From: Pycnococcus provasolii
Taxonomy: Eukaryota; Chlorophyta; Pseudoscourfieldiophyceae; Pseudoscourfieldiales; Pycnococcaceae
NCBI GenBank assembly: GCA_938743325.2
Contig: OW568871.1
Span: forward strand, 310,001-374,000
DNA: 64,000 bases
Direction: 5' to 3'
The notes below the pieces were generated by a model. That model was not told the DNA's origin, did no database searches, and saw nothing but the letters and a program-made list of their open reading frames with translations. Each line of letters begins with the position of its first letter. Within the stretch, counting starts at the first letter, position 1. Both the position numbers and the translations under genes were made by a program. Of this stretch, positions 3,740-57,840 are shown one piece after another.

Positions 3740-3846
3740 TCGTCTTTGCTCCTGCAGTCAAGTCCCGGGTGCCGCTCGTCGTCCGCCTCGCCCTCCCTCC
3801 TTCCCCCCCCGGGCCCCGGCCAGCCCCGGCTCCCATCGTCGGCGGC

Positions 3847-9070: not shown

Positions 9071-9640
9071 TTCAGGTGAATGAGGTGATGAAACTCCGAC
9101 CAGGAGAGGTGACCAGGAGGCCCCCGACCTCCCGTTCACCGTTGTAGAATACCGTTCAAGGGAAAGGGAATTTCGGCCCCCCCGTTGTATTCTGCCGTTA
9201 TTTTCCCTCGTAGACCACCTACTTCACGACGCACTGACGGCGTTCTACTGGTCGGTTTTGAGTGCTGTTTTGTTCTAAACACCATCACGAGAGACGAGGA
9301 ATTCAGCGCAACAAACCGTGTCTTCAGCGCACAAATAGGGTAGCGCACAAGTTCATTTTTTGGGCTTCCGACAAAAGGGCCAATAAACCTGGTTTTCTCG
9401 CAAACCCCTGTTAAAATATTTGGTCAGGCATCAGGGTAGTTGCCCAACCTCGTGGGCCGTGGTGCAACTCGCGCATATGTGTGTTGTGTTGTTGCACACG
9501 TTGTGCAAGTTAAAGGGGGAGGCCTCGGGGGAGTGTTTCTTACGTGCGTGCGTGGTCAAACCATCCCAACCAACTGTTCGGATCCTGGCCTTGCAGGGAA
9601 AGTCGTGCATCCCTCGACATCTTGGGGCATCCATCCATCC

Positions 9641-12600
9641 ATGGCGGAGGAAGCGCGACTTGCCACGCACGTCGCCTTAACAATACCCTCCACCGAAGAC
9701 AATAGTCATGCGCACACAACTCGTTCCTCAACGAACACGGCGGAAGGTGCACATAACGACTCGGCGCCGCAAATTCAAAACGGGCACGCAACGCACACGA
9801 CGGAAGCGGGGGAAGATGTCAAGCCAGAAGTGTACCAACAGACCGTAAAAGCCGCGCAATTCCCTGCGACGCCGAACGTAAAGACGAACGCCGTCGTGCC
9901 TGAGCCGGTCGCGACGTACGGCGGCGGCAACACAGTTGACTCCGCGGGTCCCGGCGCTATGGAGGGCGACTTGGGCAGCATGAGAAGGCAGCACTCAAAA
10001 CTTAAGCCAGCGCAGTTCACGCAAAGAAAGTATCGCGTGAGCGAACAGGCGGGCGAAGTGCACCTGACAGTTACGCGAACCGGAAAGCTGGATAGCCGGA
10101 CGAAGGGAATGTGGCCAGTCATCGACCTGCACGTGTCAACAAGGGATGGACGTGGCAGTATCATGGCAATCGAGGGAGAGCACTACGGAGGCGTGAGAAG
10201 CGCGCTTACGCTCGACTCTGACGACCAAAAGAAAGTGTTCACCATTCCCATCTACGAGCGAGAGGAAATCGAGCCTTTGGTAGAATTCTTCGTCGAACTG
10301 CACGACGCCATCACGGGAGAGCTCGTCGACTCTACCACTGTGCTGATATCGGACATGGACAGCAAACTGCAGGTGGCCCTATCGCGCATCACCAACCACA
10401 TTGCCTTCGACGTGGTGGTCATTTCTCTGTACACAGCTGCGATGCTCGGGCCAAATCTGCAGTACATCTTCGTCGATCGTAAGTACGATGTGTGGTTTCA
10501 GTACGCGTACACGGCCTTGTCGGCTCTATTCTTGGTCGACATGTTGGTAAGTCTCCTGCTCCATAGAATGAATTACATCATGAGCAGCCTCGCCTTACTC
10601 GACCTATGCGCGCAGCTTGGCGTGCTGGTGCTGTGTGACTGGTTTGTCGAAGTCACGCTGGGCAGGTATACCTTCACTGGCGCGGGTTACACGATGGTGA
10701 GCGAAATTCGATTTGTCTGGGGTCATATAATGCGCTGCATGAAAGTTGGCCTCGTTATCGGCAACGCGACGAACGGCATCGTTATGACGCTCTACAAGTA
10801 CCAGTCGGAGAAGGAGCAGAGGAAGAAGCGAAGGACTGCCAAGAAAAGCGACAAAATCGGCAAGAGCGAATCGTTGCATGAATTGACCGCGTCAATGTCC
10901 TACGACGTTAAGAGTGAAAAGTCACTTTCAGGCACTTTCACGTCGGACAGAGTCAAATCGCTTACCAGGCCTCAGGACAGCAAAGGCGTCGCAAAACCTG
11001 GATTGGATGCCAACTCACTTGGCGAACATCGCCCCCATCTTTCGAAGCACAACATACAGCTCGTTACATCCATTACCGCCAAGATTGTGCTCATGGCTGG
11101 TCTTCTGCTCGTAATTTCCAACGGTATCTACATGATAACGAGGCATATGGATCAAAAGCACTCGTTGCGAGCGACCGCACATGCGTACAGGACTTATGGT
11201 TCGAATTCCTCGACTTTCTACCAGATGACTGCCGTGCTTGTTTGGGAAGGCGACCACATGTCCGACAATTTTGAAGATGCAACAGTGTATGATAAACAGG
11301 CTGGGCATTATGTGCCAAAAACGAACGAGCTCGTGTATTTTTCTGTGTGGGGAAATGTCCAGCTTCCGTACACGAAGAATGTGATCTTTCCCGATGCTTA
11401 TTACAATGCCTTGAATACGAAGGATATTCAAGAGCTGCCGTACAACACGGTAATGTCAGCCCCGTTGAAGCTGGGTGGAAAGCTGGACGAATTGCGCATA
11501 CCATTGGAAATTTCCTTCGCGGGCTTTCACTACAACGAAGCTAAGCAAAAGTACGTACTTTGTGAGCGTCCGTACACGACCAAACTTAGAACACTGCTCA
11601 GCAGCTCTTGTGAAACGATGGTTGTTTTGGACCACTCCGAGCAGACGAGAACTATGGCGTATGCGAATTTGAAGGTTCTTGCGGCTATTGCCTCCACGAT
11701 TTTTGCAGGCCTATTCATGGTTCTTCTCGACATTAGCGGCAAACTTTTCGTCCCCCTTATGCGACTTCATGACATGGCCATAAAGGTTCGTGAAGCCTAC
11801 GAAGAGACGGCCGTCCCATTCTCAGAAAGGTATCGCAAATTGGTTGAAGAGCGTACTGATCGCATTAAGAAGTCTGGTATTCCAGACGCGCAAACCTCGC
11901 CAAACGTGATCGATGTGCAAATGATTAAGCGAGAGGCGGCGATCATGGAGAACTCGTACAGCCCTGTATTGTTTGCCGACGTTTTTATCGACAGATATCT
12001 CAAAATTGTCGATGCTCCGCTGGACGCACTTGCCGTAGCATGCACCGATTTGGAAAAGGCTTTAGGATTTCCACTCGCTACTGAGGCGAATGCCCTGCGC
12101 GCCATGTCAACGTTGCTTGAGACCAAGCTGCCGACACTTCATGCCCTATGCGTTTCCATTGGCGATCGAAGCTTAACTCCGATTCAATTCATGTCATTCC
12201 TGCACCTGCTTCAGCTATCTATTCCACAGCCTGTGAAAAAAACAAACGAATGGAAAGCTTTCGTGGAAATGTACGGGAACAAGGAGTTGACGCTCGATAA
12301 GGACATTCTAATCGGATTTCGGAAACTAATGCGGCCTGCGGAGCGCGCGATGTTTGACGCTTTGCAAACCCTTAGCACTGTGGTGATGCCCACCGTCGAA
12401 GACGAAGATCCTGTATCCGACGCGACTGCGGTGAATGCCCTGAGAATTGCAAAGACCATGGGTCCCGCCAAGACGAAACGCATTTCGACAAACGATGTGC
12501 CCGTGAGTTTGGTCAACCTGTCCTTGGGAGATCTCGAATTACAGCTTTGCAATGCGATGCGCCCACATTTGAGCTGGGCCATCATGCTGATGAAGGGCGA

Positions 12601-38104: not shown

Positions 38105-41100
38105 ATGAGGAGCGCCGTGAGATGGCTGCTCGGAACGGCAGCTTTGCTGTACGCCGTTTCCGTCTACTCGCAGAGGACTCCTTGGGATATTTGCATGACT
38201 GGTGGACAGGTGATAAGTTCAACTTGTCACCACGGCGACGTTGTGTACGTCAACACCAAAGCGGGTGGCTCCTGGCAGGCGCTGCGTGCGTATAAGTTGC
38301 CCGCGTGGACGCCGGGTGACGCGAGTGGGAACGCGAGCTCCGGCTCCGCGTACGGTGCCGCGACAGACCACTGGGGCACAGACGGAAACGGCGACGTGAT
38401 CACCCTACCGCTCGCGCAGTACACAGCCCCAACGATGGGTTTTGACACGTTCTTCCTCGACTTTGACCTTGCACTTGAGGTTCCTGACGGCGCTGCCGAA
38501 GAATTTAGCGACCCTGATGCTGGCGTGACGAGCGCTTGCACAACGCCAGGCGCGCAATTCACCACCACGGTGGATAACAACTGCGTGAGGCCAAGCTGCG
38601 GGGGTGCGACGTGCGTGGACATACCTGCGGATCCTCCTCCACCCCCTCCGCCACCTCCGCCACCCACTGCAGCGCCGGCACCCATACCACCCTTCGCGGC
38701 GACACGCGCTTGGACTCAACGTGTTACAACACTTAAGCCGCCGCGCGCCATGGCGGCGTGCGGCAGTCACACTTTCGTCGTGGGAGACTCGAACGACGGC
38801 GTGTCGGGCGAGGTGTCCATGACACGCGTTACAAAGCCTCGAGTGACCGACACGCTCACTGGCGAATACGCTCATGAAGCGGAGTTCTACCAAGAGTTAC
38901 CAGCCACCATCAAGGACGCCCGTCTTTACGGCGCTAGCGACGTCGCCTGCTTCAGTCGCAAGAGCGCTGTGGAGGAGGTTGCCAACGGAGCTGTGAGGGC
39001 GCATCTGACGACTCGCTTCGCTTACGTCGTTATCGCGAACAGAGGGCTCGCTTTTATTTCCTTTCCAGAGGATGGCCCGCCGGTGATCGTGGACTACATA
39101 GACAACGAAGCGTTGAATCAGAAGCTGACCGGCCCGCAGAACTTTTATGCAACTCGTATCCGCCTACTCGACTCGTACGGCACTGGAGATCGCGCCATCA
39201 TCGCCCTTCTGTCAAATAATGACAACGACCTAAAGCTACTCGAATTCACGGGTGGTGCTGGATCAACGAGGGAACTGCTGCCCAGCTTAAGAGATGAGTA
39301 CAACAAGCTCTATGCCGGGGGTGACATGAGCATGTTTGATGCCCCGTGGAGGTCCGTCGAATTTATCCCCGACGATCAGCCCGTTGCCATGGCAGGATAC
39401 TTCGACACTCGCAACTTACAAATCTCCATCGTGGGCTCCGCGGATACCGCCTTTATTGGACTTGTGACAGTCGCGATGTCAATGAATGGCAACGTACTCG
39501 AAGCGGCTTTGTCATCTTTCAAGGTGTCTTTCGAAGCTGGGCTCTTTCTTGCGAGAGACTCATGCGCAATAAATTCGGCGAGAACGAAGCTGTACGTTGC
39601 GCTGACAAACGGCCTTGCAGTTTACAATCTGAACATCGATGACGCTGGCCCACTAGATCCAACGCTAGACTCGAGCGTGGGTATGGGAAATGATGCAGAT
39701 ATTGTCGCGATCGCTTGTCCGAACGGTGGTGATCGGGTGCTTCTGTCTGCGACCGGGGGTTCAAATGCTGGTAAGATTCTTGCCGTAGATAGGACTGCCG
39801 CAGGACTGCCTCCGGTGATTCCTTTTGGCGCCGATGACGCAGGAACGTACTTTCCCGCCGGCCGTGCCGCAATGGTGCATGGCAGATATGTCGTTGCGTG
39901 CCAGAATTCGGGAGGTAGCGGTTACTTATCCCGCGCAGATATTCTTGATGGCTATTTATATACCGCAGAATTGATCTCGACATCTCAGGACTTTGGCTTT
40001 TGTGCCCCACCTTACGGTCTACACATGGCTGCAGATCCGACAGCTCCAGTTCAGGTGAATTTTCCGACTAGGAGCTCGTGCGTCGCAGCGGGATTTCGCT
40101 GTGGAGACACAAATAATGATGGAAACCTCGCGGATCCTGCGGATTCTAGCCTGAATAGCAACCGTAATGCCATAGGCTGCGAAAACGCGGGCGGAACCAC
40201 ATCTCAAAATACAATTTGTCAGTTTTGGAGCGCTGACGTCGACGGCGACATGATAGTCACGTCATTAGACATGTACGTGCTCGGTGCGATCCAGCTAGGA
40301 GAGCTAACAACGGCCGGATTGACCACTGCATGCAGTGTTCCTGCCGCAGTAACGCCTACGCCTGGGCCTGCACCTGCGCCGGGGGTTACACCTGCGCCCA
40401 TGCCAGGTGAGACTCCAGTGGCACCAACACCTGGGGTTGACCCCCCGACTAATGGAACAACACCAACGCCTGGCGGGGACAACTCAACGACTGTGGCACC
40501 GACACCGGGAGACGGCAATTTTACAAACACAACAACTTTGCCGGTCAATTATACAAACACAACAACTTTGCCGGTAAACACGACTACGGCACCGGTGAAC
40601 GCTACGACAGCACCCCCGGAACTTAAGGACTTTCCCGGAGTTATCTTGACACCAACGACGTTGAATCTTGAGGAGGCAGAGAAAATCGGGGAGCGTGGCG
40701 CAGTTCAGTCGTACGATATCACGCTTTCTTCTGCTCCTGTCGTTCCACTGAACGTTACGTTGAGCATTCCGCAGTCTGAACAATCCCAGGTGGATATTCA
40801 ACGAGACGGGGATGTCGAGTTCTTCAAGACGATCAACTTCAAATTCACTCCTGAAGCGTGGGATGCGACTCCAAAAGTGGCAGTGCACGTATTTGCTCTT
40901 GCTGATGGAGTCGCAGAGGGCAACCACTATGCTTCGCTTCAGCATAGAGTAAATGTGAGTGATGCAGCAGATCTTGCTTTGTTTCGCCATAACAGCCTCG
41001 GAGGTAGCACCAACGTGAAGCTAAATTTGCGTGATCACGCATCGGTCTCGGCAAGTCTGCTGTTCACGCCATCAGGAAGTCTGACGATTAACGAAGGCTC

Positions 41101-44100
41101 CAACGTTACAATTCAGGTGTCGCTATCAAGCCGCCCTGATGCAGATGTCACTGTCACATTTACCGTATCCGCAGATTTTGTGAGTTCAGTAAATCTTCGA
41201 AACGGCACAAATGCTGATCCTAAGCTCGGAGGTGCATCAAGCTTTACGATGCGATTCACGCCTGAGGGTTTCGACGCCAAACAATCTATGCTCATATCTA
41301 ATCAGGAAAACAGTATTGCTCACGGTCGACGGAATACTCAGCTTACTATCGGCGTTAGTTCCTTGAATCCAGTTTATGCAGCTCTCAAGCCTGATCCGGT
41401 ACCGCTCACGCTTCTCGACGATAGCTCGGCTGGAATTAATGTCAGCCCGTCGAGTGGCTTAGTCGTAAGAGAGGGTTCCTCGAACGGTGCAAAAGTGTCA
41501 ATCGCGCTAAACACTCGTCCTTTAGCAACGGTTCAGATATCGTTTGAAGAGGTGGATAAGGATGGTAATGTCGTTGCTAGCGAATTGCGGGGGTTGGACA
41601 TCACGCCGCGCACACTGACATTCACCGTGTCGAATTGGGATGAGGCGCAAGCTGTGACTCTCTTCGGTAGAGCAGATGGCGTGGTGCGTGGTAATGCTGG
41701 GAGAATCGTCACGTTGAAGGGATCTAGTGACGACTCGTCCTACGTGCTCACAAGAACACTGTCAACGACAGTTGAAGACGTGGACACTGCTTCGCTCAAG
41801 GTTTCTTCTACAGAAATCGCTTTCGAGGAAGGTAAATTCAAGCGCCTTGACGTGTCCCTTGGCAGCAAGCCCTTGTCTGAAGTGAGTGTAGTCGTTGGAT
41901 GCACTGGAAGTGTGGACACGAAAGACGATGCTTACTGCCGCGATCTTGCATCGGGTGCCATCGCACAACCAATCCTTGCCGTCGCAACAGAGCCTAGCGA
42001 TATTGCCAGTCTCGACAAAACGTCAACCGGCTTAATGCTTAGTTACGAAGCGTTTTCGACAGACTCAGGTCGTGCTTACCTGGCGATGCCTGCTGATGGA
42101 AGATGTCGTGTTGCCTCAAACGGTGTACTTGGGAAGCTACAGATTCCAATGGCCTCAGTCTCATCTGATTCTTACTACAGCGGACTTACCACAAATGTCA
42201 CCGTGACTGTTACGGAGACAGATGTTGCAAGGATCTGCTGGGGTGCCACGACGTGCGAGCAGGCGTTGACGAACCAGGTGATAGATGGAGTGCTAGACAC
42301 ATCAATCACCGTTCGGGAATCACCCACGCCATCATCAATTTCGCTGTCATTTGCACTGCAGACAATTCCCATTTCGCCAGTCACGGTGCGTATTTTGGTT
42401 TTCACCCTAACACCCATAAAACCGTCATTTTCCCTCCCCTGCCACCAAATCAGCATAAATTTCAAAAGAGGAGACTACAAGTTCGTACCCTAACTAACTC
42501 TAGCCCTAACTCTTACCCACTCGCCAGATCAAGCTCACTCCAGACGACCAGCTCACAGTGGAGCCAAGCTCGTTTACGATCGATCCGTAAGTTTTATCTT
42601 TAACTATCCCGGATAAACAATAGCCACGCACAAAATCTAACACACTTAACTAAACTAAATAGAAGCGACTATGATGACGGTGACGTGCCATCTGGTGAAT
42701 TCAGAGTTGCTGCAAAGGATGACTTGATTGAAGAACGTATGCACACTGGCAAGCTGTCCGTGACTATGACAACAGATGATCCTTGCTACTCTGTACTTGA
42801 GCCTGTGCAGCTCTCTGTACGCATCAAGGATGATGAACTTTCAGCACCAGTTGTTAGGCCTATTGAAGTCAGCGAAGAGAAGGAGGTAGATTTTGAGACT
42901 GATCTTGGTCTGACTATCAAATTTCCAGCGGCGTGGCTTCCTGTCGCGAAGAAGGGATCGGTCACTGATTTGAATGTCAATGTGACAGAAATGAAGCCGG
43001 AGAGTGTGCCGAAGCCAATTGATGTCAAGGTATTTTCGCCACAGACAATCGTTAGCATCCGCATTGAAGCTATAGATAGCACGGACAGGTTCGCTGCTCC
43101 CGTACCTCTGTCAATACCCATCTCCCCATCTACGAATCCTGAGCTAGCAGCCATAGTCTGGTCGTATGGGCGATCGGCGAGTGATGGTTGGAACGTCCTT
43201 GAGAACACAATCTTTGACCCAGCTACAGGAACAATTAAAGGCTTAGCTGAGCACTTCAGCATCTACGTGTCAACGGAGGTGCTACCATCCGTGGTTATAA
43301 CGAGTACTACAAGTTCACTTGGCGATGAGCCACTCGTGTACACCGAAGATCAGCCAGAAGCTCTTTATCCATTTGATGGCGCCAACGCGGTATTTGAGGA
43401 TGGAGTCACAGTGCTCTCTGAGTATATCTGCGGACTCGATGTATCTCTCGTAAACTCCAACGATGGGGCGAACGCATTGGATGGATCAGAGGATCAGCTG
43501 GCGTTTGGACCGTCATCGGAGTCGTCTGCTGACGCGCAGGGCTTCTCTGCATTCTACAATGCTTCCAACCTTGTTCTATACCTGCGCAAGGGAGACGCCG
43601 ACGGCAGCGCTCTGGCAGACGATCCTGCGAAGGGCTCGCAGTGCGCCGGAAAAGCATCACTCGTCGAGTACGCCAAGGCTCTGCAAATGATTCGCTATCG
43701 CAATCCGAGTCAAAATCCGAAGAACACTGGCGATAATCGCGCGCTGCGTGTTCGCGTGCACGAAATGCACGCGAAAAAGACGCACACGTATCCTGCACGC
43801 ATCAAGGTGAACTCCTTGAATGACCCACCGACTGTGCAGCCATCGTCGAACGAGATGGTGTATAATGAGGGCACCGCATCTCGCTCACTCGATGGCGGTC
43901 TGACCATCTTTGACCCAGAAGATCATAGCTTGATCCGGGCTCGTGTGACAATCGAACCATTTGACGATACCTCGGACGTCTTCCTGTTTGATAGCTCAAA
44001 CTCAGCCTTTGAAGATGGCGCTAGTTTGCCAACGATATCCAAGGACTCAAGCAATCCGTCTGTTGGAGCGTACGATATCTCGGGCGCATTTCCGTTACTG

Positions 44101-47100
44101 ACGTACGTAAATGTTCTGCGAAGCTTTAAGTTCAAGAATGACGGGCCAGCAATTCGCTTCTTGAAACGGACGGTGACCTTCAGGGTGGAGGACGTTGATG
44201 GCGGCGTGTCAAATGCGACACGAACGCTGACGATTCGTGAGCGTAACGACCCGCCCAAGGCGGAGGATCTCGCGTTGAATGTCCGTGAGGATGAAAGCGT
44301 TGAAGGATTCGGAACTAACGGCATGCAAGCTACTGATCCCGAAGGAAACAAATTGACGTTCCGTGTGGTATGTCCAGGTTCAAAGGGCGACCTTGTTCTC
44401 GTCAACGCACAATCTGGTTCTTTCAAATACACGCCCTATCCTAACGAATTCGGCGTCGATACGATTGTATATGTTGCTCGCGATGATAAGGGTTTGGATA
44501 GCAACTTTGCTACGATCACGGTGAACATTGAGGCGACGCCAGATGCACCTGTGGCCAACGATGCCATATACAACAATGTCTTTGATGGGATCGATTTCGT
44601 CGAGAACCTCCCGGTGTCAGACTCTGATGGTGACCACGATATCAAGTTCATTCACATTGTGGTTCCTCCAATCTACGATAAGGAGGCTGTCCAATTAACG
44701 CCTGCGCCTGGTGATAGCCAAAATACGGATCAAACGCGACAACGTGGCATTAATCCGTTTCGCTATTTCATTAAGGAGGACTCTGAAACAGCAAAGCAAG
44801 AGTACGATGAGTTCAAGTACCAAGTGGAAGATCAAGGTGGTGCTCTTAGCAATCTAGCCACTGTTAAAATCTATATCAAGCGCCAGTCACAGATCGTGAA
44901 TCAGAAACCTGTGTTGTTTCCATCAGATGAGTACGTACGTGAGCATGGTAAAAAAGTGTTCCTGATCAATGCCACGGACGATCGCACCAAGAATCTTGCC
45001 TTTTTCTATGCAGGCGGGTCTCGCCCTGAGCTTGGAACACTCCACTCGTGCGACCGAACCGATGCAGCTCTGCCATTGAAGGAGCTCTGTGATGGAATTG
45101 TTGGCCCAGGCGATGGAAGCGCAGGTGATCCAGTCGAGGACACTGAATTTATTGGATATGGCGGAAAGGTTGTGTACTCAGCCAAGCGTCACCGACATGG
45201 AGTGGATGCCTTTTCCGTCGTCGCTAGGGATGTGCAGGATAAGCGTTCCACTCCTGGGGAGCTTCGGATTGAGGTGCGAGAGCAAAATGATGTTCCGGTG
45301 CCCGCATGCTCCACGAGGAGTGAATTTGGTGGCGTGCCACCAACAGCTTTTGCTACTCAGTGGAGAGCGAGTAACGTGACCGAGGCCCTCCTCGTGCTTC
45401 CTGATACTCCGGCTGATATCGATGGGGTTGACGCTGGCAAGATTCATGAGGAAGCAGCATTGCACTTCCGCGACGTCCATGCAACTGGTATGCTCAAGAC
45501 ACAGAATGTGGATGAGCTGTCGATGCTTCTACCAGTCGAACTTGCGGGAACAACGTTCGATCAGCCAGCAGCCTATACGATCTGCAACGATACGGGTAGA
45601 ATTGTCGCGATTTCACGGCCGGTTCCCCCGAAGGATGATAGGCGAGTAGGCGGTCCATCGCGCCCGCCGCCAGGATCGCGCCCGCCACCGCCGGAGCTTC
45701 ACCCGCAGCCGGTGCGGAAGGACACTTTCGTGGCGCTTCTTGCGTTCGATCCCGATGAGCCCACGAATGGCACGCTTCTCTACGAGATCATGGATCCACC
45801 AAAGATGGGTAATCTCACGCTCGTGCCTCGCGATGAGCTGCGGGTTGGTGCTTTTGAGCCGAGTAATGTCAACTTCACCGTTCGGCAAGGTGAGCCCATC
45901 TTCATGCGCTTCGCAGCATTCGAGGGGGTTCGTGGCACCGACGCCTTCCGATGGACAGCACGAGATTCGCGCCGCGGCCGCGATCTATCGTCGCGTGCAG
46001 GTTTCCTCGTGAGCATTTCGGTCATGTGTCCACCAGGCAGCATTATCGATCCTGGCAACGAAACAAAGTGTACGCCCTGTGAGCCAGGTTTTTACAATGA
46101 TCCTGACGTGTTTGATCAAGTAGACTGCTATCCGTGCGTGGAGGGAACTTACAACAGCAAGCACGGCGCCACGCAATGCGAGCTCTGCCCCGAGGGTACA
46201 TATGAGCCATCGCAGGGAATGTTGCAATGCACACCTTGTCCTCATTCCAATCAGACCACTCCAACGGGAGCAAAGCAGCAGAAAGAGTGCAAATGTGGCC
46301 TCGGCTACTGGCAGACGTGGCCAGAGACGTGGGCGCATCTCTTTCCCAATTTGGATCCATCTGGCAGCGGCGTGTGCGTTCCTTGCGACCCAGAGCGAAC
46401 AGTGTGCGACATAATCGGGCAGCGCATTCCAAAGCCTCGTTCTCGCAAGTACTTTGTGAATCCCAAAAATGCATTCGACGTCGCCACGTGCGATCCAGAG
46501 GCTTCGTGTCTCAGGCACAGGACGACACAGGATGTACTCGTGGGGACATGCGCGGTTGGATATCAATGGCCAGGTCGTGGAAGTACCGAAAATGTCACCG
46601 GAGATGCGTGCACAGAGTGCCAGCAGAAGTATTATCGCGACAATCGTCTGTGCAAGAAGTGTCCAAAGGAGGCGTGGCTGGTTTTCGTGGTCTTCGGTGC
46701 GGTTGCAGTTGCTATTGCGCCTGTCCTTGTCAAGCTCGCGCAAGCTTCGCAGGGATTTAGCGCAGTGAACATTGCAATATCGTACTTCCAGGTGAATGCA
46801 ACATTCCGGCAATTCAACTTTCAGTGGCCCAGTATCGTCGTCGACTGGTTTGACTTCCTCGCTATCCTAAATATCGACGTTGCATGGCTTGCTCCGGAGT
46901 GCTTAGTATCGTGGTCATTCTTGAATAAGATGGCAATGATTCAGGCGATGCCCGTGCTATATATGGCCATCTTCGGATTCAACTATGCCGTTTATTTTGT
47001 GTACATCCTCTATCAAGATTGGCGCTCACTGGAAAACAAATCAGAGAGCGACTCTGACCCGCAAACGCCTCATGCTTCTCGAAGCCTCAAACGCAAATTG

Positions 47101-50100
47101 GCGGAAGTGTACTCATCTGCAAAGGCGCATGCCGCTGCAGATCTCGGCGAGCACTACGGCCGTGTGAAGAGTGCCTTTTCTCTTTTCCTCCTGTGGGGTT
47201 ATCTTATCATTGGAACTGTCACATTCGAGTACTTCAACTGCTCTCAGGTTGGAGACACGTGGCGCATGCGCGTGGATCCGAGCGTGCGATGCACATGGTT
47301 CCCGTGGATTGACGAGTCGCAGCGCACCAGGCAAGGCATGCACTATCGTCTCGCCCCTGTTGCAGTTATCAGTTTTTTCTTGTATCCGGTTGGCATCCTT
47401 GTGCACTTCGCGTGGGTTCTATTTTCTAACAGAGATGTTCTGAAGAATAGGTACATGATCGAGTCCTGGCTCAGCGATGCAAAAGACGAGCTTGACAAAG
47501 ACTTCAAGAAGGAGAAGCAAGAGAAGGAACAGAAGGAGGAGAAGGAAGAGAAGGAGCGGAGAAAGTCTTCTACGGAGATCGACGTTTCCATGGCGAAGGC
47601 TCGTGGAATTTTCGCGTGGATGACTCTGTGGTTTACGAGCTTCGTCACCTTTACGAAACACCAAGAGGCACGAAGTCCGTTCCAGGTTCTTCGCGAGAAT
47701 GATGCCAAAAGCGAGGACTTGCTGAGCCACACAAAGGTGGAAGCATTTAAAGGTGAAAGTGGTGAGGCAAATGTGAAGAATGCACTCCGCCTGCGTACGC
47801 TGCAAGTTGCGTATGGTTTTTTGTTCAAGCGGTACGAAAGTGGTACGTTATTTATATTTGTTCGTTGTTTCCTGTGTTATCCACAGTCACTCACTCCCTT
47901 GCTCACTTGTCCACTCACTCTTACTTCATCAAATTCAATCAGACTATTACTGGTGGGAGATCATGGCATTCCTGCGCAAGCTTGCCATTGCAGCCGTGCG
48001 ACTGCTGCACAACCCGTTGGACCAGGTGGTTGGCGTTGCCGCGATTTTGCTCGTGAACATCGCGGCGACGGCCCAGTGTGACCCTTATGAGGAGCAGTAC
48101 CTCGACTACATGGAGCTTGTCGCTCTCATGTGCAACCTAATGATTTTATTCAGCGGATACCTCTTCTACAGCGACTTGCTCAGCGATAATGAGATGAACA
48201 CTGCTGGTATTTTGATCGTGCTTTTGATGGCTGGCAGCATAGTAGCCATGGTCATATGGGTGCTGTGGGATATATCTCCACTAATTCGCAAAGGTGCCCA
48301 GCTTTACCTGCCGAATACCTACATTGTTCTGCCTCTCGTGAAGTTCAATCCCAACTTTAGGAAGAAGAAAGGTTCATCGATGAAGTCGTGGATTCCATTT
48401 AAGATCCAATTTGTTCAAATCCGACTGGGAATTTACCGCCAAGAGAGGCTGAACAGGCAAAAGTCGATCAGTCAGAAAGTGAATGAGAAAGAGAATGTGG
48501 TGTCGCATCATGAAGTACGACGCAGTGAAATTGCCGGATATAAAAAGGAGGCAAAAGTGAGACTTCAGCTTCAAGCGACGCGTAGCGGACAGCTCGTACT
48601 TGCAAGTGAAGAAGATGATGATCCTAATGACCCTTCGGACTCTCAACCATCGGATCAAGATGGACAGAAAGGCTCTTCTTTCGTGGACGTCACTGAAGCG
48701 CAGAAGGGCCTTGCAGCGATGAAGGTTATTCGAGCTTTTATCATGGACCCCAAAACGTCAAAGGTACTACAGAATGCGCGGGCAACCTTGGACAGTAAGG
48801 CGTACTTGACTCTAAAGCAATGGATTGAGGATGATCGTGCCGAACGATTTGAGAATCCAGATGCCTATGATGGATCGAAGCGTGAGATTGTGGACTTGGC
48901 CATGAATCTTCTCTTCGATGCTCTCCCCACGACATTTAAGGATGAGGTGAGCAAGGAGAATGAGAACACATTGCTTCGCTCCATACGCAAGTTTGCCAAG
49001 CAACAGTACAATCATGACCAAAAACATCAACATGGGCGTGATGGACGCCGTATGATGAGCGAGGCTGATGTTCAAGCCGTTCGCTTCCGTCGCAATTCGA
49101 ATCCGAACATCCATCAGATTCCCCTTGTTGGAGGCGTTATAAAAAGCTCGAGCGCAGAGAACGTGTGGAATTACGTATGCTTCGAGATGGGCGATGTTTG
49201 GATTCTGCAACCTGGAGCAAGGATTGTGCTCCCCAAGGGCAACCGTGGCGTTACGCTTCTTGGCCTGCCCGCGGGTACTGAGATTCAGCCGCCCAAACAT
49301 TGCGAGTTTGCCACCGAGGACGTACCACGCAAGAAGCACTTTGTTGTGCGCAAGGGTGATCGTCGCCGCTCATTGCGTGTCCAGGGACATGCCACAATCT
49401 TGATTCCGTCGAGCCTGCTCGAACCAATCATGACTAGCCTGCCCGTTGGAACCACAGTCATCGATCATCCCAAAGTGGACAGTGCCAATGATGATCAGGA
49501 AGGCGGTCTCCAGGAAACCCCAACTCTAAAACGATTTGATTCGCTTGGTGGGAAAAAGTCGCGCTCCATTGCGGGACTCGACGCGGCGACGCGGCGCAAG
49601 CGCTTGCTAGCGTATCTTGATAGAATTCATTCCCAGGTTGAGGCTAATCAAAGAAGCCAATACACGTCGAGTGTGCTTGAATGGGAAAAGCTAAGCAGCA
49701 CAATGCAGCAGCAATCTAGCAGCATCGCAGGGAAAAGGGATAGCACGGAGACTTCGAAGAATCGAGTCGTGACGGCAATCGGACGAGCGGGGGTTGCGCT
49801 TAGGACGATGATGGTGACCGCAATGCTTGGCTTCCTTGGATTCGCTAAGGTCAGCGAAGCTGCGCTTGTGCTGCCTGAGCCTGGCTGGGTGCCAGCTAGC
49901 GCAGATGATCTCGGAATTGGAGCCATTTTGAACATTCATGAGGTTCGTTTTCACTGCTTCATTGCTTGAATGCTTAGAAATTTGCTCCTGGGGACATTTC
50001 ATTTCATATTGACATCTAACACCGAACAAAAACTTCAATACTCTAGGATACTCCCTTCAAGGGAAACTTGGATCAGGCGATTAAAATGCAAGATGGAAAT

Positions 50101-53100
50101 GCTCAAATGAGTGCTCTGGATTATCGTGACTTTCAGGTTGCATGCGAGCCTCAGTTGGGTACTCTAAATGTGACGTCTGGAGATACATTTACGTACACAC
50201 CGTTTGAAGATAAATTTGGCGAAGATATTTTTTCGTTCCAGTACTTCGACCAGAATGTGCTTGTGGATACACCTGGACAGAACGAGCTTCCACCCCAGGC
50301 GCAGCGACTGCTCGTTAAAGTTAAGATTGCTCCGAGAAATGACGCCCCGCTGGTTGACCCTACGTACGAGATCCCGACGAGCTTGGTGCCAAATAAGGTG
50401 CCAGACGCAAATCAACGCAAGGGGCTGCCCACCGACCCGCCCCAGCGCCTTGTGCACATTCTCAAACCGGAGTCTGGCGTTGATGCTGATGGTGACAATC
50501 TCAGATACAGCATTATTTCGCCACCAAAACGTGGCGATGCAGAAATTTATGACACGAACACGCTGAGCTACATTCCATTCGCTTATGTTGAGGATGTTCG
50601 AGACGCATTAGAATACCGCGTGGATGACTGCGGCTTAGGCTTAGGGGACGCGAACGAGCTTCTGATTTGCAATCCAGAGACAAGAAAATGCGAAGTAGAG
50701 GCTGGAAAGGAAGAGAGAGCTAAGAGTGAGGGTGATAACCTACCCATTGGGCGCGAATGCGCATTCCAAGACGGACAAATTACACTTTCTATTGGCAGTC
50801 CTGTTGGTCTACCACCGCCGCTGAAATCGATGGACATGAATATTCTTGAAGACGCTGTGCTCATTGGGCACCTGCGGCGCGGTTCGCTCCCCGCAGAGCT
50901 CACGTCGTCTGACGTGCGTTACAAGATAGCCCGCGGCCGCCAACCCAAACATGGCAAGGTGGAGATACTCTGCAACAAAATGGATTGTCCGCTAACACAG
51001 GATGGAATCGTCGACGACAGCTTTGATATGGGCGCATATCGATATACACCGGATTCTCACTGGAGCGGAGAAGATTCCTTTGCTTTCGGCCTTGTCAGTA
51101 GCAATGATGATTACGATGCAATTAACCCTGATCCGGTGGCTGAGGTGAAGATCATCGTTACACCCGTGAACGATGCTCCGTCGGTGCTTAATGATGCAAG
51201 TTTGGAACGCGCAGAGGAGGCTCTTGGTGTGCTCAACGTGATTGACAAGGTTGTAAGCGGTAGTCCGAAACCGCTCATGCAACGGCCGCAATCGAACAAT
51301 GCACAGCTCAACGAAATACTCGGAAACTTCAAACGCGTGAATGAGACTCTCGCTCGACTTGCTGGCGCCCCTATGAGATTGCCACCAGGTCAAGAGCCAA
51401 GCACTCCCTTACGCAGCGCGAAGACGCTCGAGTTTGCGCTGAAGCGTTACGGACGCATCTGGATTATCGCGGAGGACAATGACAGTGCAGATCTAGAAAT
51501 TGCCCTGCGTGTGGCACCTCAGCATGGAACGCTTTTCTTGAAATTGGGCGAGAATAACACTGACCCGGATCCCTACTATGATGTCTGGACACCTGAAGTC
51601 AAGAAGATGCCAATGGTGAAGCGTAAGATTCGCAACAAAGCACTGGGAGGACAGGAGCGCACCTACCACGTATATCAAGCATGGTTTCAGGTCAATGCTC
51701 TCTTGCGCGGTTCCCCTCTTGAGCTTCTTCAGTTCAATATCACGGACGACGAGGGTGCCATGACAGTTGCACAGATTCCTGTGTCTGTACCTTGTTCACC
51801 TGGTTATCACGTTTCAGGCGACGACAACGAGGTTTGCACGCCATGTGCGCGTGGCACATTTGCGCCGCGGAAAGAAATGATTCGGTGCTCTCTTTGCATC
51901 GAAGGATATTCTTCAAAGGAGGGCTCCAAAGCTTGTGATCCGTGCCCACTTAATACATACGCAGAGAAAAAAGGCGCCCCGAAATGCTCGAGCTGCCCGG
52001 CGAATGCCGATGGCGGGGGAACAAGTGTCACGCTCACGATCGGCTCCACGAATCGAACGGCGTGTGTGTGCGCACCAGCAATCGCTCCTGAGCTGACGCG
52101 CGAGTACGATGAGGAGGGAAGATTGGTTTCCGAGCGCGCGATGTACGAAGATGGCATGCGAGGCTACTACGGATCACCTGGGGGACAGTGTCTACCATGT
52201 CCAGGGCCCGGTCCGCAACCTGATGGAAAGCGTGTGCCAGAGTGGACGATGTGCAACAGCCATGCCATGCGATGGCCGGTAAGTCGTTCTGGCTTCTTCG
52301 TCGAGATTCCACGTGGACTTCCACCATCCCCACCGCCAGGCATGCAGCCAGAAATAGCTCCGATTTCAGAGAAGGTGATCACGCGCGAGTGCTTCCCGAC
52401 AAAGGCTTGCCCAGACCACGGAGGAGATCTAGTCAAGATGCTCGCGCAGCCATGTGGCACCGGTTATGACGGCATCGCATGCTCGGACTGCGCGAACGAC
52501 TATTACCGATTCCGGGGAGTTTGCAACGAATGTCCTGAAAATGCCACAGCCTGGTTCACTATATGGGTCATGATCCTCATCGCCATCGCCGTTCCCGCGG
52601 CTTTCAGGTTCTCGAATATGCTTCAGCGCATGCCGAGCTTTAACCAGATAATCAACCTTACGCAGATGATTGGTGTGTACGGATTGATGGCACTTAATTT
52701 TGTCGGACCGCTCAAGTGGCTCGTCGAAAATATTTCAATCTTCAACTTCGACCTAGCACTCGTGCACCCAGGGTGTGTGGTGTCTGGCTTCACGTGGGAT
52801 CGCAAGTGGGTTGGCTCACTTGCATTTCCTTTGCCATTTGTTGCTATACTTTTGGGCAATATCGCGCGCATCTGGCTCACAAGCAAGTTTGCTGAGCGGT
52901 ATGGCACGTTCCTCATAGAGCACTTACCTGAATGGTTTATGCATCCTGGAACGCAATTCAGGCGTAGCGCCACGAAATCTCCCTCGAAGGACGTCGAGGG
53001 TGCCTCCACAAACGGGAGTGGCGGTGGTTCAGCAGAAGAAGGCAAAAAAGATGACGATCACGATCACGACGACAATGGACTTCTTGCACAAGGCTTTAAG

Positions 53101-55453
53101 AAAGTTGTCCTTTTTTTGAGATCTATGGCGATGCCGTTTTGCTACCCGCTTCACACCGACGACTTAAGCAAGAGGATTCGCTCAAATCTCCGCTCTGGCT
53201 TGGCGCTTGCCAAATTTGCCTTTGTGCCGTTGACACTTACACTTGTCGAGTTCGTGGACTGCAATCAAGACGTTAGCACGGGGCGCTATTTCCTTGAGTC
53301 TGAGCCAACGATCGAGTGCTTTGTCTTAGACAGGAGCAAATATGTATGGGCGGAAATGCTTCCAGTATTCATTTTTTTCGTCATCTTTTACCCCGTTTGT
53401 CTACTTGGCGGCTTCGTGTGGATAATGTATTCTGCTCGCGGCAATCTGAACTCGCCCGCCGTTAAAGATGTGCTAGGTTTTATTACACAGCACTACAACG
53501 CAAAATACTATTATTTTGGTATGGCAAACGAAAAGATTTTGTTCGAGAGAGACATCTCAGATCCAAATTCTCACCACAACACACCACAAACCACCCACCT
53601 TCCACTATAAACATACAGAGGTCGTATCGATGGTACGAAGGGCAAGCGTCATGATTACCATGGTGATGTTCACCGGAGCAGAGCAATCTGCATCAATGCG
53701 GCAGGCTGTCGTGAGTACGCTAATCAACTTCACCACCCTCATTATAAACCAGCGCACGAAGCCGCATAGATTACCCTGGCTAAATCGTCTTGAGGCAGGA
53801 TCACAGCTAACTGAGCTGCTTGTGCTGCTGACGGGTCTCATTACGCTCAGCAGAAAAACAAGCGGCCAGTTTGGGTACGATATGGGTTTGTTCACCACAA
53901 TCGTCACCTTGGCGCAGTACGGCTGTATCCTCTTCGCGTGCGCGGTTGAATGGAATGAGAAGAGTGGATTCTTTGATCATCAACAAGACTCTGTGGCAAA
54001 TGTTATGAGAGAAATGAGGAAGAGTGCGGCGAAACGCGAGCATAAGTATAGACAATATGAGAAATTGAGCGAAACTTTGGTGAAGAAGGCCAAGAAGGGA
54101 AATCTCAATGAAGCTTATGCGTATAAAATCATCGCTAAAATTCTCCGCGATTTCGCACCCGACGAAAAGACGCGTAATGCAAAGGTGAAGAAGCTCATTA
54201 CATTTTTCCCGGTGATGACAGAACGCGTGGAAGAATTGTTGAATGCTCTGCATGAATTTGAAAAAAATCCCCACGTCGCCGAAGCGAAGGAATCTGTGGA
54301 GAGATGCGCGAGAGATGTCAAGGACGGTCTTCACAAGGTGATCAGAGGTTCGGCCAGCAAGTTTTGGGCCGTTGTCAAGGCGCACGAATTTGCACGGATG
54401 CTTCTTGCTAGGCGTAGTGCCTTCCGTGTGCTTACCGGTGCCGCGATTCGACAGAGCCAGGATACGGCAACGTCGCAAGACGTATTCGAGCGTAAGGAGA
54501 TAGTACTGATGCATCACGAGAACATAAAGACGGCAGAAAGTGACGAAGAAGCAAAACGTTTAATGCAGAGGTTGCTCGTAGATCTGTCGATTCTGCTGCG
54601 AACTATCGATAAGCTGCTGAGCATAGCTGGGGTCAGAGGGAATGGTGAGACCGACGGTGCAAGCAGTAGCACCAAATTAGATGCACGTGAGATGCTTTTC
54701 TCTGCGATTCCGCCTTCCCGCAAGGACATCTACAAGAAGTGGTTCTCAGGAGAGGAACGTTCAAAAACTTGGAAGGATTTTGTCGAGCAAACTACCCAAA
54801 AGCAGTGCCTCGAAACTCTGATGGATCTTAAGGATGCTCTTGAGAAGATCAGCACGAAGGCGAAACAGGTGGAAGACGATGCGTTCAATGCGGGCAAGAT
54901 CCATCGCCTGCCGTCGAAGCTGCGTGAGGGAACTAGTGTGCATACAAATGCGTTGTCAGCCACAACGAGTGCAGACGCGGAGAGCGGGGTTATACCGCCG
55001 CTAAGCCGTTTTGAGGCTTCGCGATGCCTTGAAGAGATCAACGAAATCAACAAGCCCAGGCAGGCGATCACTCTAACGCGTGGTGGTAGCAGGCCGGTGC
55101 ATCATGCGTTGGAGCCAAAGTACCGCACTCAGATGATGGAGAGCCTGGCTCGCAGCATGGGAACATCAGAAGCATACGATAAGCTTCAGAAGATTATCAA
55201 TATAGACAGTCAGCTCGACGAAGACGACGACGACGTTGGCGTGGCTATTCGCCACGGCATTGATACCGCATGTGAAGATATGTTGTATCCTCACCGACGT
55301 CGCGCGATCGATTCCGACGACCGACAGGAGAGTTTTGGTATCATCACTCGTGATCGCAGTAGGACGGAGGCTAATGGAGGCTGGAACACGGTAGCCGTGG
55401 GTGCGAAAGCGGCTGGTCAACTGAGGACGCGCAATCGTGCTCAAACGGTGTGA
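38105..55453 (+). CDS. giant surface receptor/adhesion protein: dockerin-like, Calx-beta, cadherin-like, Cys-rich and duplicated multi-TM modules (six exons, ~5,607 aa)
   Basis: Exons: 38105-42385, 42528-42586, 42666-47842, 47943-49942, 50047-53518, 53619-55453; introns of 142, 79, 100, 104 and 100 nt, all GT-AG. Phases match at every join and total 16,824 nt (5,608 codons with stop). Order: signal peptide (MRSAVRWLLGTAALLYAVSVYS); propeller-like region; dockerin-like pair (about aa 664-735); Thr/Pro/Asn linker with many N-glycosylation sites; four or five Calx-beta repeats (to about 42830); a beta-rich region; cadherin-like repeats (about 43800-45300); Cys-rich GCC2/GCC3-like repeats (46025-46660); a TM cluster; a cytosolic helical stretch; a return TM (about 49770-49870); then a second cadherin-like, Cys-rich (51790-52540), TM cluster and cytosolic tail. 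Probably a plasma-membrane, calcium-dependent adhesion or sensing protein; function is inference. The main alternative is two or more separate genes. Confidence 0.75.
40095..40310 (+). other. dockerin-like calcium-binding pair inside the giant protein
   Basis: CGDTNNDGNLADPADSSLNS and ADVDGDMIVTSLDMYVLGAI form two F-hand-like loops with Asp/Asn at calcium-binding positions, separated by about 30 residues, as in type I dockerin modules (G-D-x-N-x-D-G ... D-x-x-x-L). A short Cys loop sits between the halves. Identification is by motif only. Confidence 0.55.
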
Positions 55454-55550
55454 GGATGCTGCGCATTTTGGAACAAAATACTGGGAGATTTGAATGGTTT
55501 AATTTGTGTCACATCAATTTTTGTTTCAAAAATATCGTTTAGTAGGTCCA

Positions 55551-56191
55551 TCAGGCGAACGGATTGTTTGCAGAGTACGTAATGGACGGTGCCGCCTGTT
55601 GTTGTGCTATTGTTGTCATCGTCGGCGCACCCATGCTGCTCGCAGGCAGACCTGTGCTTGCCGGGGTGGTCTGAGGAAAAGATGGCATGCCCGACGCAGC
55701 TTGAGACATCGGTGCGATTTGAGGCTGGGAGGACATCATGCCCGATGTCACGTTTGGAGGTGGCATGGCCATGTTCGTGCCCATGCCATTACCAAACGCT
55801 GCCGCGTTGCTCGGAGGTTGCATACCTGGCGCGCTTGTGGTGAACGGCGTGGATGTGACGACTTTCGTCTTTGGTAGACCGAGGTCAGATCCAAGATTGC
55901 TGAATGGATCTGGGGCTTCGGAGGCTGCTGCCATCTGTTGTGCTCCCGGCGCTGGGCTCATACCCATGCCCATGCCGCCGCTGCCCGCCGCGGCGCTGCT
56001 CGGAGGCTGCATGCCCATGCCCGTGCTCATGCCCATGCCCGTGCTCATGCCCATGCCCACGCCGCCAACACCGCCAGCCATAGCGTTTGGAGGCTGCATG
56101 CCCATGCCCATGCCGCCAACACCCGCCATAGCGTTTGGAGGCTGCATGCCCATGCCCATGCCTACACCGCCCGCCATAGCGTTTGGAGGCT

Positions 56192-56229
<38 letters not shown>

Positions 56230-56323
56230 GCGCCTACACCGCCCGCCATAGCGTTTGGAGGCTGCATGCCCATGCCCATGCCCATGCCCGCGCCTACACC
56301 GCCCGCCATAGCGTTTGGAGGCT

Positions 56324-56367
<44 letters not shown>

Positions 56368-57840
56368 GCGCCTACACCGCCCGCCATAGCGTTTGGAGGC
56401 TGCATGCCCATGCCCATGCCGCCACCGACCGCCGTTGCGCTGCTCGGAGGCTGCATACCCATGCCTGTACCCATGCCCATACCCGTGCTCATGCCCATGC
56501 CAGCACCGCCCGCCATTGCATTCGGAGGCTGCATACTCATGCCACTTGACATACCCACAGCATGGCCTCCCATACCAAACACGCTCGGCGCTGAATATCT
56601 AGCAGGTCCCATCACACCGCCTGTCTGAGGTGCCCCTCCATAGCTTGGTGGTGGACTTGGCGACGCGGCGAAAAGATCTTCATCCAACTCGCCAAGACGC
56701 GCCACGCCCGTTTTAAGTTTGGGCGAATTCGATTCAGATTCGTCAAACGCATCTACCCCTGCGGTAGAAGCTGTCGTTGGTGCCATCGACAATGCGAATG
56801 GATCTGCCGTTTGCGCCGTTGACGCCGGTGCCATTGACGATGTGAATGGATCTGCGGGCGCCGCCGGGGCTGGTGCTGGTGCACCGAATGCAGCGAAGGA
56901 GTTGTCTGCGGGCGCCGCCGGGGCTGGTGCTGGTGCACCGAATGCAGCGAAGGAGTTGTCTGCGGGCGCCGCCGGGGCTGGTGCTGGTGCACCGAATGCA
57001 GCGAAGGAGTTGTCTGCAGGCGCCGCCGGGGCTGGTGCTGGTGCACCGAATGCAGCGAAGGAGTTGTCTGCGGGCGCCGCCGGGGCTGAAGCTGGTGCAC
57101 CGAATGCAGCGAAGGAGTTGTCTGCAGGCGCCGCCGGGGTGAAGGACGCTTCTGGAGGCGGTTGTTGGCTCGTAAATCCTGATCCGAAAGAACCGAAGTC
57201 AACAGGAGCTGAAGTTGAAGCTGCCGTGCCATCGCCAAACGCGCCCGCAAAGTCGGTCCCGAATCCATGCGTCACCTGTTGCGTCTGCTGCACCACGCGC
57301 GTTTGCGCCGGCGCCGGCACCTGCGCCGATGACTGTGCTACCTGCGCAGTTGGCTGTCCAAGCCACCTCTTTCGAACAAACACTTCCGAGATGAAGGCTT
57401 TTGTTCGCTGGCGCTCTTTGCCGTTCGGCAGTGGGAAGTCGTGTGGCTCCCAGCTTGCAAGCCACGTCTCAAGCGCTTTGCCGTTTCCCTGACGCTGCAG
57501 CGCAGCCACCTCCGCGGCAGAAAACGTAGCCATTGAAATGGATTTGACCTTGAACTGAAGCTCGCGGTGAAGGCCGGAGCAAGCTGTGCATACGAACGTT
57601 CCAAAATCCGTGCCTGTGCGTGCGTGTGTGTGTGTGTTTGCGTCATGACAAGTGAGTATATGTTTCTTAATCCGTCGTTTCGTTCGCGCGTTTCTCGCGT
57701 GCTGGTCTTGACGAGCACGTACACACATACTGCGGCCCTAGCGCTTCGCAGGTAAAGCACCGTTTGTTGAAGCTCTCCTTGAGCATGGCCCTGATCATCT
57801 TCTCGTGCTTCGCCTCGAGCGCCTTGCTGGCCATGGCCAT
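55551..57840 (-). CDS. AGFG-type ArfGAP with FG-rich and GMQ-rich repeats, two exons
   Basis: Exon 1 is 57840-57723 and exon 2 is 57613-55551; the 109-nt intron has donor GTACGT and acceptor CACAG and splits a Cys codon (phase 1), giving 726 residues. The ArfGAP zinc finger is built across the junction: CFTCEALGPQYVC then TDFGTFVCTACSGLHRE (C-x2-C-x16-C-x2-C) plus the arginine-finger region; then MATFSAAEVAALQRQGNGKALETWLA as in AGFG/HRB proteins, which activate Arf GTP hydrolysis and act in vesicle traffic. Next come five 18-residue repeats containing NSFAAFG, and a Gly/Met-rich region of MGMGMQPPNAMAGG repeats; the protein ends NNPFA, an NPF-type EH-domain ligand. The arginine-finger residue was not verified. 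Divergent from the gene at 58510. Confidence 0.85.
55965..56530. repeat. coding minisatellite: CCCATG hexamers and PPNAMAGG units
   Basis: On the top strand, CCCATG/CCCATGCCCATG hexamers alternate with a longer unit carrying GCCATAGCGTTTGGAGGC, repeated about eight times with variable hexamer number. It encodes the Gly/Met/Gln-rich tail of the ArfGAP on the minus strand. All length changes seen are multiples of three. Confidence 0.9.
56851..57140. repeat. 54-bp coding minisatellite, five copies plus a partial
   Basis: Units start at 56851, 56905, 56959, 57013 and 57067, with a partial from 57121. Each encodes 18 residues around PAAPADNSFAAFGAP in the ArfGAP. Copies differ by only one or a few bases, indicating recent expansion or homogenisation. 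Confidence 0.92.

Follow-up and report, generated by a model that had tools for sequence, protein, structure and literature searches.

A predicted 5,607-residue protein of Pycnococcus provasolii that carries two TRP-like receptor modules in one chain

A six-exon gene and its paralogs

The window analyzed here is a stretch of 64,000 nucleotides (nt) from the green alga Pycnococcus provasolii (contig OW568871.1, positions 310,001 to 374,000). Its plus strand carries, at window positions 38105..55453, a giant gene of six exons whose predicted product is 5,607 amino acids (aa) long. Comparison with paralogs shows this chain to consist of two complete putative receptor modules in tandem, A (aa 1 to ~3790) and B (~3813 to 5607), and the locus as a whole is best explained, as far as sequence can tell, by a pair of TRP-like surface receptors, A and B, held together covalently in one chain; we give this reading a probability of about 0.55. 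Gene copies are named by contig: C11 is the copy in the window, and C19, C33, C17 and others are contigs of the same genome (32.3 Mb, 46 contigs) that carry paralogs. The exons and introns of C11 are listed below.

38105..42385, plus strand: exon 1, aa 1-1427; signal-peptide-like leader, N-terminal head, Pro/Thr-rich linker and start of the repeat array
42386..42527, plus strand: intron 1, 142 nt; missing from C33 and C19
42528..42586, plus strand: exon 2, 59 nt; uninterrupted in C33 and C19; ratio of nonsynonymous to synonymous substitution rates (dN/dS) 0.10 over 20 codons
42587..42665, plus strand: intron 2, 79 nt; missing from C33 and C19
42666..47842, plus strand: exon 3, to aa 3172; remaining ectodomain A, Ephrin_rec_like repeats and first transmembrane (TM) helices of module A
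47843..47942, plus strand: intron 3, 100 nt; common to C33, missing from C19
47943..49942, plus strand: exon 4, last TM helices of module A, cytosolic linker and hydrophobic linker segment, as placed by C19 and C33 alignments
49943..50046, plus strand: intron 4, 104 nt; missing from C19
50047..53518, plus strand: exon 5, ectodomain B (cadherin-like/Big_9, Ephrin_rec_like) and first TM helices of module B
53519..53618, plus strand: intron 5, 100 nt; missing from C19
53619..55453, plus strand: exon 6, last TM helices of module B, cytosolic tail and stop

The initial annotation had joined these exons into one gene, and the model could be rebuilt exactly: the exons sum to 16,824 nt with a single terminal stop, and the five introns keep the frame, with lengths within the 79-142 nt given earlier. 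None of the five lengths is divisible by three, and GC content is 0.32-0.45 in the introns versus 0.51-0.54 in the exons. Frame arithmetic alone is weak, since 16 open models, the six-exon one included, stay in frame if the choice of donor at introns 3-5 is left free (eight donors at intron 3 times two at intron 5). The decisive support for the model is the comparison with same-genome paralogs, by which 38105..55453 is one real gene.

The paralog on C19 is one intron-free, stop-free frame of 6,118 aa running from 689225 to 670872 on the minus strand. It aligns to aa 1826-5286 of the model (33% identity, E 0.0) and to aa 744-1817 (26%, E 7e-62), in the order of the model from aa 744 to aa 5286, and thus is colinear through all five joins. 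The alignment has small gaps near joins 1/2 and 2/3 and is gap-free at joins 3/4, 4/5 and 5/6, which picks the donors of the six-exon model out of the 16. The frame on C33, at least 4,561 aa long, is a 75% match to aa 838-3172 and reads straight through where C11 has introns 1 and 2 (the alignment shows gaps of one residue close to both joins); an intron follows at the site of intron 3, beyond which the match continues at 54% to aa 3806. C33 thus supports joins 1-3; exon 3 itself is 77% identical to its C33 copy. Between C11 and C33, dN/dS was 0.10-0.44 in all ten stretches tested.

The N-terminus of exon 1 is hydrophobic. Since C19 likewise starts with a hydrophobic leader, and the TPWDIC of the model has its counterpart in a TPWEVC that comes after this leader, the start codon of the model is probably right. 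The N-terminal parts vary among paralogs: the 75% identity of C11 to C33 begins only at aa 838, no alignment was found between the heads of C11 and C19, the head of the C17p gene contains LamG, PA14 and many Cadherin_3 repeats, and that of C19 has an LVIVD match barely above cut-off (21.5 versus 20.2 bits). Varied heads on alike bodies would fit receptors with different ligands.

As a separate observation, synonymous divergence (dS) between C11 and C33 (window 40616-49843) is 0.49-0.85 for aa 838-3290, except in the 20-codon exon 2 (1.43), and 1.30-1.55 for aa 3291-3806. This patchy divergence suggests gene conversion of the common part.

Two module types and their membrane blocks

Each module comprises, by comparison with its paralogs, an ectodomain, Ephrin_rec_like Cys-rich repeats, a CxxCP motif and a membrane block. 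The features used below are as follows.

44215..44523, plus strand: Cadherin_4 / Big_9 domain of module A (PF17803 67.4 bits, PF17963 51.5 bits)
46144..46290, plus strand: Ephrin_rec_like, best stretch of module A (PF07699 46.7 bits)
46675..48265, plus strand: TRP-like membrane block of module A, aa 2784-3280, across intron 3, from hydropathy
48986..49465, plus strand: unnamed conserved stretch of the cytosolic linker, aa 3521-3680; 68% identity to C33, dN/dS 0.18
49793..49861, plus strand: hydrophobic linker segment, aa 3790-3812, at the place where standalone B proteins have their leader
51904..52065, plus strand: Ephrin_rec_like, best stretch of module B (PF07699 43.8 bits)
52549..53947, plus strand: TRP-like membrane block of module B, aa 4674-5106, across intron 5, from hydropathy

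The Pfam scan of the model was done exon by exon, so that the membrane blocks were split at introns 3 and 5. The cadherin-like label held up, with PF17803 and PF17963 above cut-off in exons 3 and 5 (29.6 and 46.1 bits in exon 5); for the repeat said to cross exons 4-5, the domain scan, the C19 alignment and the alignment with a standalone B protein agree. The NCBIfam tandem-95 repeat was found in the same two exons, under its cut-off. What had been called GCC2/GCC3-like corresponds to Ephrin_rec_like (PF07699), which is present in both modules and in all ten rows of profile A2, built from paralogous modules.

Two other domain names did not survive. The repeat drawn across exons 1-3 is indeed continuous, being unbroken in C33 and C19, but neither exon 1 nor exon 3 matched PF03160 (cut-off 27 bits) at E<=1, with HMMER filters dropping most matches above 0.1, and none of the nine PF03160 matches genome-wide lies in the giant gene. 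In a small test by hhalign, five repeats compared with seven of the nine Calx-beta domains of the same genome gave a best E of 0.054, which is at the level of the best of four controls (0.067), and the Calx-beta name was dropped. So was the dockerin name: PF00404 matched nothing in exon 1 at E<=1, and the 90-aa segment so labelled matched, when searched alone, just two sequences, both named serine protease (E 0.0056 and 0.0058). A genuine Calx-beta domain (PF03160 34.5 bits) occurs in a separate 2,001-aa single frame at window 9440-15445, plus strand, which has no sequence match to the giant protein.

The two multi-TM blocks predicted in one gene are borne out by C19 and C33. Their kinship was approached through genome-mates, with PF06011 (TRP; gathering cut-off 28.5 bits) scoring above cut-off in five (C20, C28, C41, C42 and C11b) of the ten paralogous modules that were scanned and at 11 of 13 places genome-wide. 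When TM parts only were compared by hhalign, the A group matched the TRP-scoring group at E 4.7e-32 and the B group matched it at 2e-29, with A versus B at E 7e-43; all reversed controls fell at 0.21-0.35 (0.35 for the A group and 0.29 for the B group against the TRP-scoring group). The TRP-scoring group consists of seven genome-mates, each above the PF06011 cut-off in one of two scans, and in four of them the cut retained extra Cys-rich sequence; since the A and B profiles start after the CxxCP motif, the match lies in the membrane part. By this route, homology to PF06011 TRP-type proteins extends to the membrane blocks of both A and B. The juxtamembrane CxxCP motif is found in both modules as part of a single CxxC..CxxCP motif, where DUF7630 is above cut-off in C20 only (1 of 10 modules scanned).

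Protein searches gave 25, 2 and 16 proteins at E<=0.001, the last two scoring only candidates that share most words; as these searches depend on common 5-residue words and a length window, they cannot establish absence elsewhere. The relatives of the membrane block come from the same alga or a near one, from metagenomes (P0001, P0002 and P0028), and the other proteins seem to match via cadherin-like or Cys-rich parts, judging by Pfam labels and low coverage. Among solved structures, 60 chains matched at E<=10, their best stretches lying in the Cys-rich part, chance-level ones aside.

In the averaged hydropathy profile each block shows eight strong hydrophobic peaks and two weak ones, about ten in all. 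If the two weak peaks are counted as one, each block would cross the membrane nine times. Nine crossings place the TM5-6 loop, which has a nearly invariant Cys, on the outer side; the linker, the tail and the charged loop between TM6 and TM7 then lie inside. In agreement with this, C11 has no N-glycosylation sequons in the three cytosolic stretches versus ~5.3 expected, and 26 and 6 in ectodomains A and B versus 18.1 and 3.3 expected. One A2 row contains a C2 domain (PF00168, E 9.7e-10); judged by a long alignment insertion, this is most likely C23, with the domain in its TM4-5 loop, which would put that loop inside. The conserved stretch at aa 3521-3680 of the linker is common to C11, C19 and C33 and had no Pfam match in the exon-by-exon scan.

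The front parts of the two modules match each other by BLASTP with 23% identity (E 2e-25). A first tree was built from the 18 module copies with enough sequence, and a second from 15 rows after the long branches C18, C42 and C4 were dropped; C30, C36, C4:241k, C12, C8, C5, C2, C28:399-401k, C3:277k and C23:108k stayed outside the 18-module tree as incomplete copies or partial matches. In the 18-module tree, modules 1 of C11, C33 and C19 group together (support 100/100), as do modules 2 of C11 and C19 (100/100), and in the 15-row tree modules 2 are joined by the single-module genes C17m and C3 (99/97). The approximately unbiased (AU) test rejected a single clade of all five C11, C19 and C33 modules, with p 0.0024 for 18 rows and 0.0004 for 15 rows. 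Because of these clades and this rejection, A and B are best taken, on the trees, as two old paralogous types united in the chain. A recent internal duplication of one receptor would explain why both halves share a domain order and match each other; it is very improbable given the AU test, the position of C17m and C3, which lie closer to module 2 than module 1 does when the long rows are left out, and introns 3 and 5, which had been considered as lying at one site in both modules and turned out to be about five codons apart.

The junction between A and B

The standalone B gene on the minus strand of C17 (C17m) has a leader that aligns with aa 3790-3812 of the model, and behind it comes the cadherin-like domain that also follows this segment in the model (E 8.5e-14 for this region), and the B-type gene of C3 also begins with a leader; leaders were judged by eye and hydropathy. 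C33 ends inside the linker segment and has no B match in the 22 kb examined, so that module B looks to have been lost from it. All this makes aa 3790-3812 look like the former signal peptide of B. Since nine crossings put the end of module A inside, something must bring the ectodomain of B out again. We propose that the linker segment, at the site of B's old signal peptide, would re-enter the membrane of the endoplasmic reticulum, so that the ectodomain of B would face outside.

The same segment admits two other outcomes. One translated chain might become two proteins if signal peptidase cut after the linker segment (aa ~3812), as it would be expected to do at the leaders of standalone B proteins, leaving A of about 3,800 aa and B of about 1,795 aa as equimolar subunits. 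The alignment with the C17m leader and the leader at the start of the C3 gene speak for this possibility, as do the residues before the putative cut, S-E-A in C11 and V-A-G in C19, small residues being found before signal peptidase cuts by the -3/-1 rule, and the A-only protein of C33, which ends in the same segment, so that A can stand alone. An internal segment that follows a 500-aa cytosolic linker may, however, remain a plain membrane helix, and we consider cleavage possible but rather unlikely. Alternatively, there may be two overlapping or adjacent genes, with A ending past exon 4 when intron 4 is retained and B starting from an ATG of its own in the linker segment. Retained intron 4 does bring a stop after 8 codons, leaving module A alone, the segment contains two Met codons (aa 3795-3796), and standalone B genes begin at the corresponding point. 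Yet C19, at 33% identity, has A, linker and B in one stop-free frame, and separate genes would hardly stay in frame so long, while C33, A-only in the 22 kb examined, does have a stop there; we regard two genes as improbable.

A bolder version of the cleavage idea, which we hold to be doubtful, is that the locus encodes a nuclear "polyprotein" receptor: both subunits of a TRP-like A:B receptor-channel would be made from one 16.8-kb frame, and signal peptidase would cut at the mid-chain signal peptide. If true, this would give strictly equal amounts of two nine-pass subunits, and retention of intron 4 would give subunit A alone.

Known relatives, proposed partnership and proposed function

A and B types also exist as separate genes in the same genome. 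Contig C17 carries one of each kind, A-type with a frame of 5,508 aa and B-type with a frame of 1,839 aa. They stand head-to-head, with candidate start codons at 114877 and at 116122 or 116269, 1.2-1.4 kb apart. That the two types are fused in two genes and adjacent in a third suggests that they act together.

The initial annotation knew of no characterised protein with this architecture. None was found for the whole chain, and two such modules in one chain are not described among titles and abstracts from literature searches; each half, on the other hand, follows a known plan, that of CRMPs and of the PF06011 TRP family. By these comparisons it is the fused A-B pair that is new, the nine-pass TRP/CRMP-like surface protein plan being known. 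We take PF06011 to be the family of Schizosaccharomyces pombe Pkd2 and the yeast Flc proteins. Its membrane blocks are homologous to those of the window protein through genome-mates above the Pfam cut-off, whereas the window protein has two blocks per chain, both under the cut-off, and ectodomains of Ephrin_rec_like and cadherin-like type. In passages of one report, fission yeast Pkd2 is described as a force-sensitive (stretch-activated) putative Ca2+ channel (PMC12028594).

According to passages of another report (PMC9815656), CRMPA and CRMPB of Toxoplasma gondii have Ephrin-receptor-like repeats and nine TM helices each, belong to a complex needed for rhoptry secretion and were modelled as a heterodimer through their TM blocks. 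Apicomplexan CRMPs fall into two clades, A and B, with one member of each retained, and share a conserved core of two EGF-like domains and nine TM helices. Like the window modules, CRMPs have Ephrin-receptor-like Cys-rich repeats before the TM block; their EGF-like juxtamembrane core, nine TM helices and two clades may have counterparts in the single CxxC..CxxCP motif, the eight strong and two weak hydrophobic peaks and the two module clades seen here, a likeness of described plan. In contrast, CRMP A and B are separate proteins, and the window gene has both types in one chain, with cadherin-like repeats and other heads. The Chlamydomonas mastigoneme protein Mst1 (8tx1) shares Ephrin_rec_like repeats with the modules (profile A2, E 1.1e-45), the best of seven matched stretches covering profile positions 7-92 of 601, the Cys-rich part; mastigonemes are, according to a further report, attached to the channel PKD2 (PMC10846610).

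We propose that A and B are partners that fusion would have fixed together, and that the pair may work at the cell surface, where its large exchangeable heads would bind the cell coat, the matrix or another cell. A pull or a ligand might then alter the TRP-like pair, most simply admitting Ca2+. Channel activity, pairing, gating by force or ligand, Ca2+ entry and cleavage are all put forward here as inferences. The protein could instead be a structural adhesin or a secretion trigger without conductance, its TRP-like blocks merely anchoring and dimerising, like the modelled CRMP blocks. CRMPs, which combine Ephrin-receptor-like repeats with nine TM helices, do act in rhoptry secretion, and the passages in question report no channel activity for them (PMC9815656), but genome-mates of the window protein score above the cut-off of a TRP channel family, and we hold this alternative to be a tentative one.

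Several observations weigh against a joined pair of nine-pass TRP-like receptors. The window blocks themselves are under the PF06011 cut-off, exon 4 reaching 11.5 bits (E 0.13) and exons 3, 5 and 6, scanned apart, having no listing at E<=1, and so are C19 module 1 (17.5 bits) and C17m (18.0 bits). With two of ten hydrophobic peaks weak, nine crossings are a reading, and sequons in C19 are mixed: ectodomain A has 9 versus 12.8 expected and B 9 versus 5.6, the linker 1 versus 1.5 and the tail 3 versus 3.3. Exon 4 and exon 6, the last parts of the two modules, gave no BLASTP match (E 0.73). Modules 1 group with C17p and C23 at just 84/89 (15 rows) or 60/77 (18 rows), C18 falls among the B rows (88/92) when long rows are included, and the AU test was set up after the first tree had been seen. 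Finally, the A and B genes of C17 are divergent, from which it follows that simple read-through did not make the fusion.

Next to the giant gene, a minus-strand ArfGAP frame (55551-57737, PF01412 64.6 bits) converges on its stop, with 97 bases (55454-55550) between them. Elsewhere in the genome, contig C31 has two light-harvesting gene clusters (133072-142609 and 360395-366434), on both strands and with six copies each; all 12 copies have an equal score in the genome scan, which found 51 PF00504 matches genome-wide, the mark of an alga.

Gene fusions are among the best hints as to which proteins cooperate. Should A and B indeed be partners, the alga would offer a ready test of whether nine-pass receptors of the TRP/CRMP-like kind function in heteromeric pairs. 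In apicomplexan CRMPs, contact through the membrane was modelled, and no homolog structure had been solved at the time of writing, in passages of that report (PMC9815656); similarly, passages on fission yeast Pkd2 call the structure of its oligomer largely unknown (PMC12028594). If our reading of the linker segment is true, the locus would also be a clear case of gene fusion turning a signal peptide into an internal membrane segment or a cleavage site.

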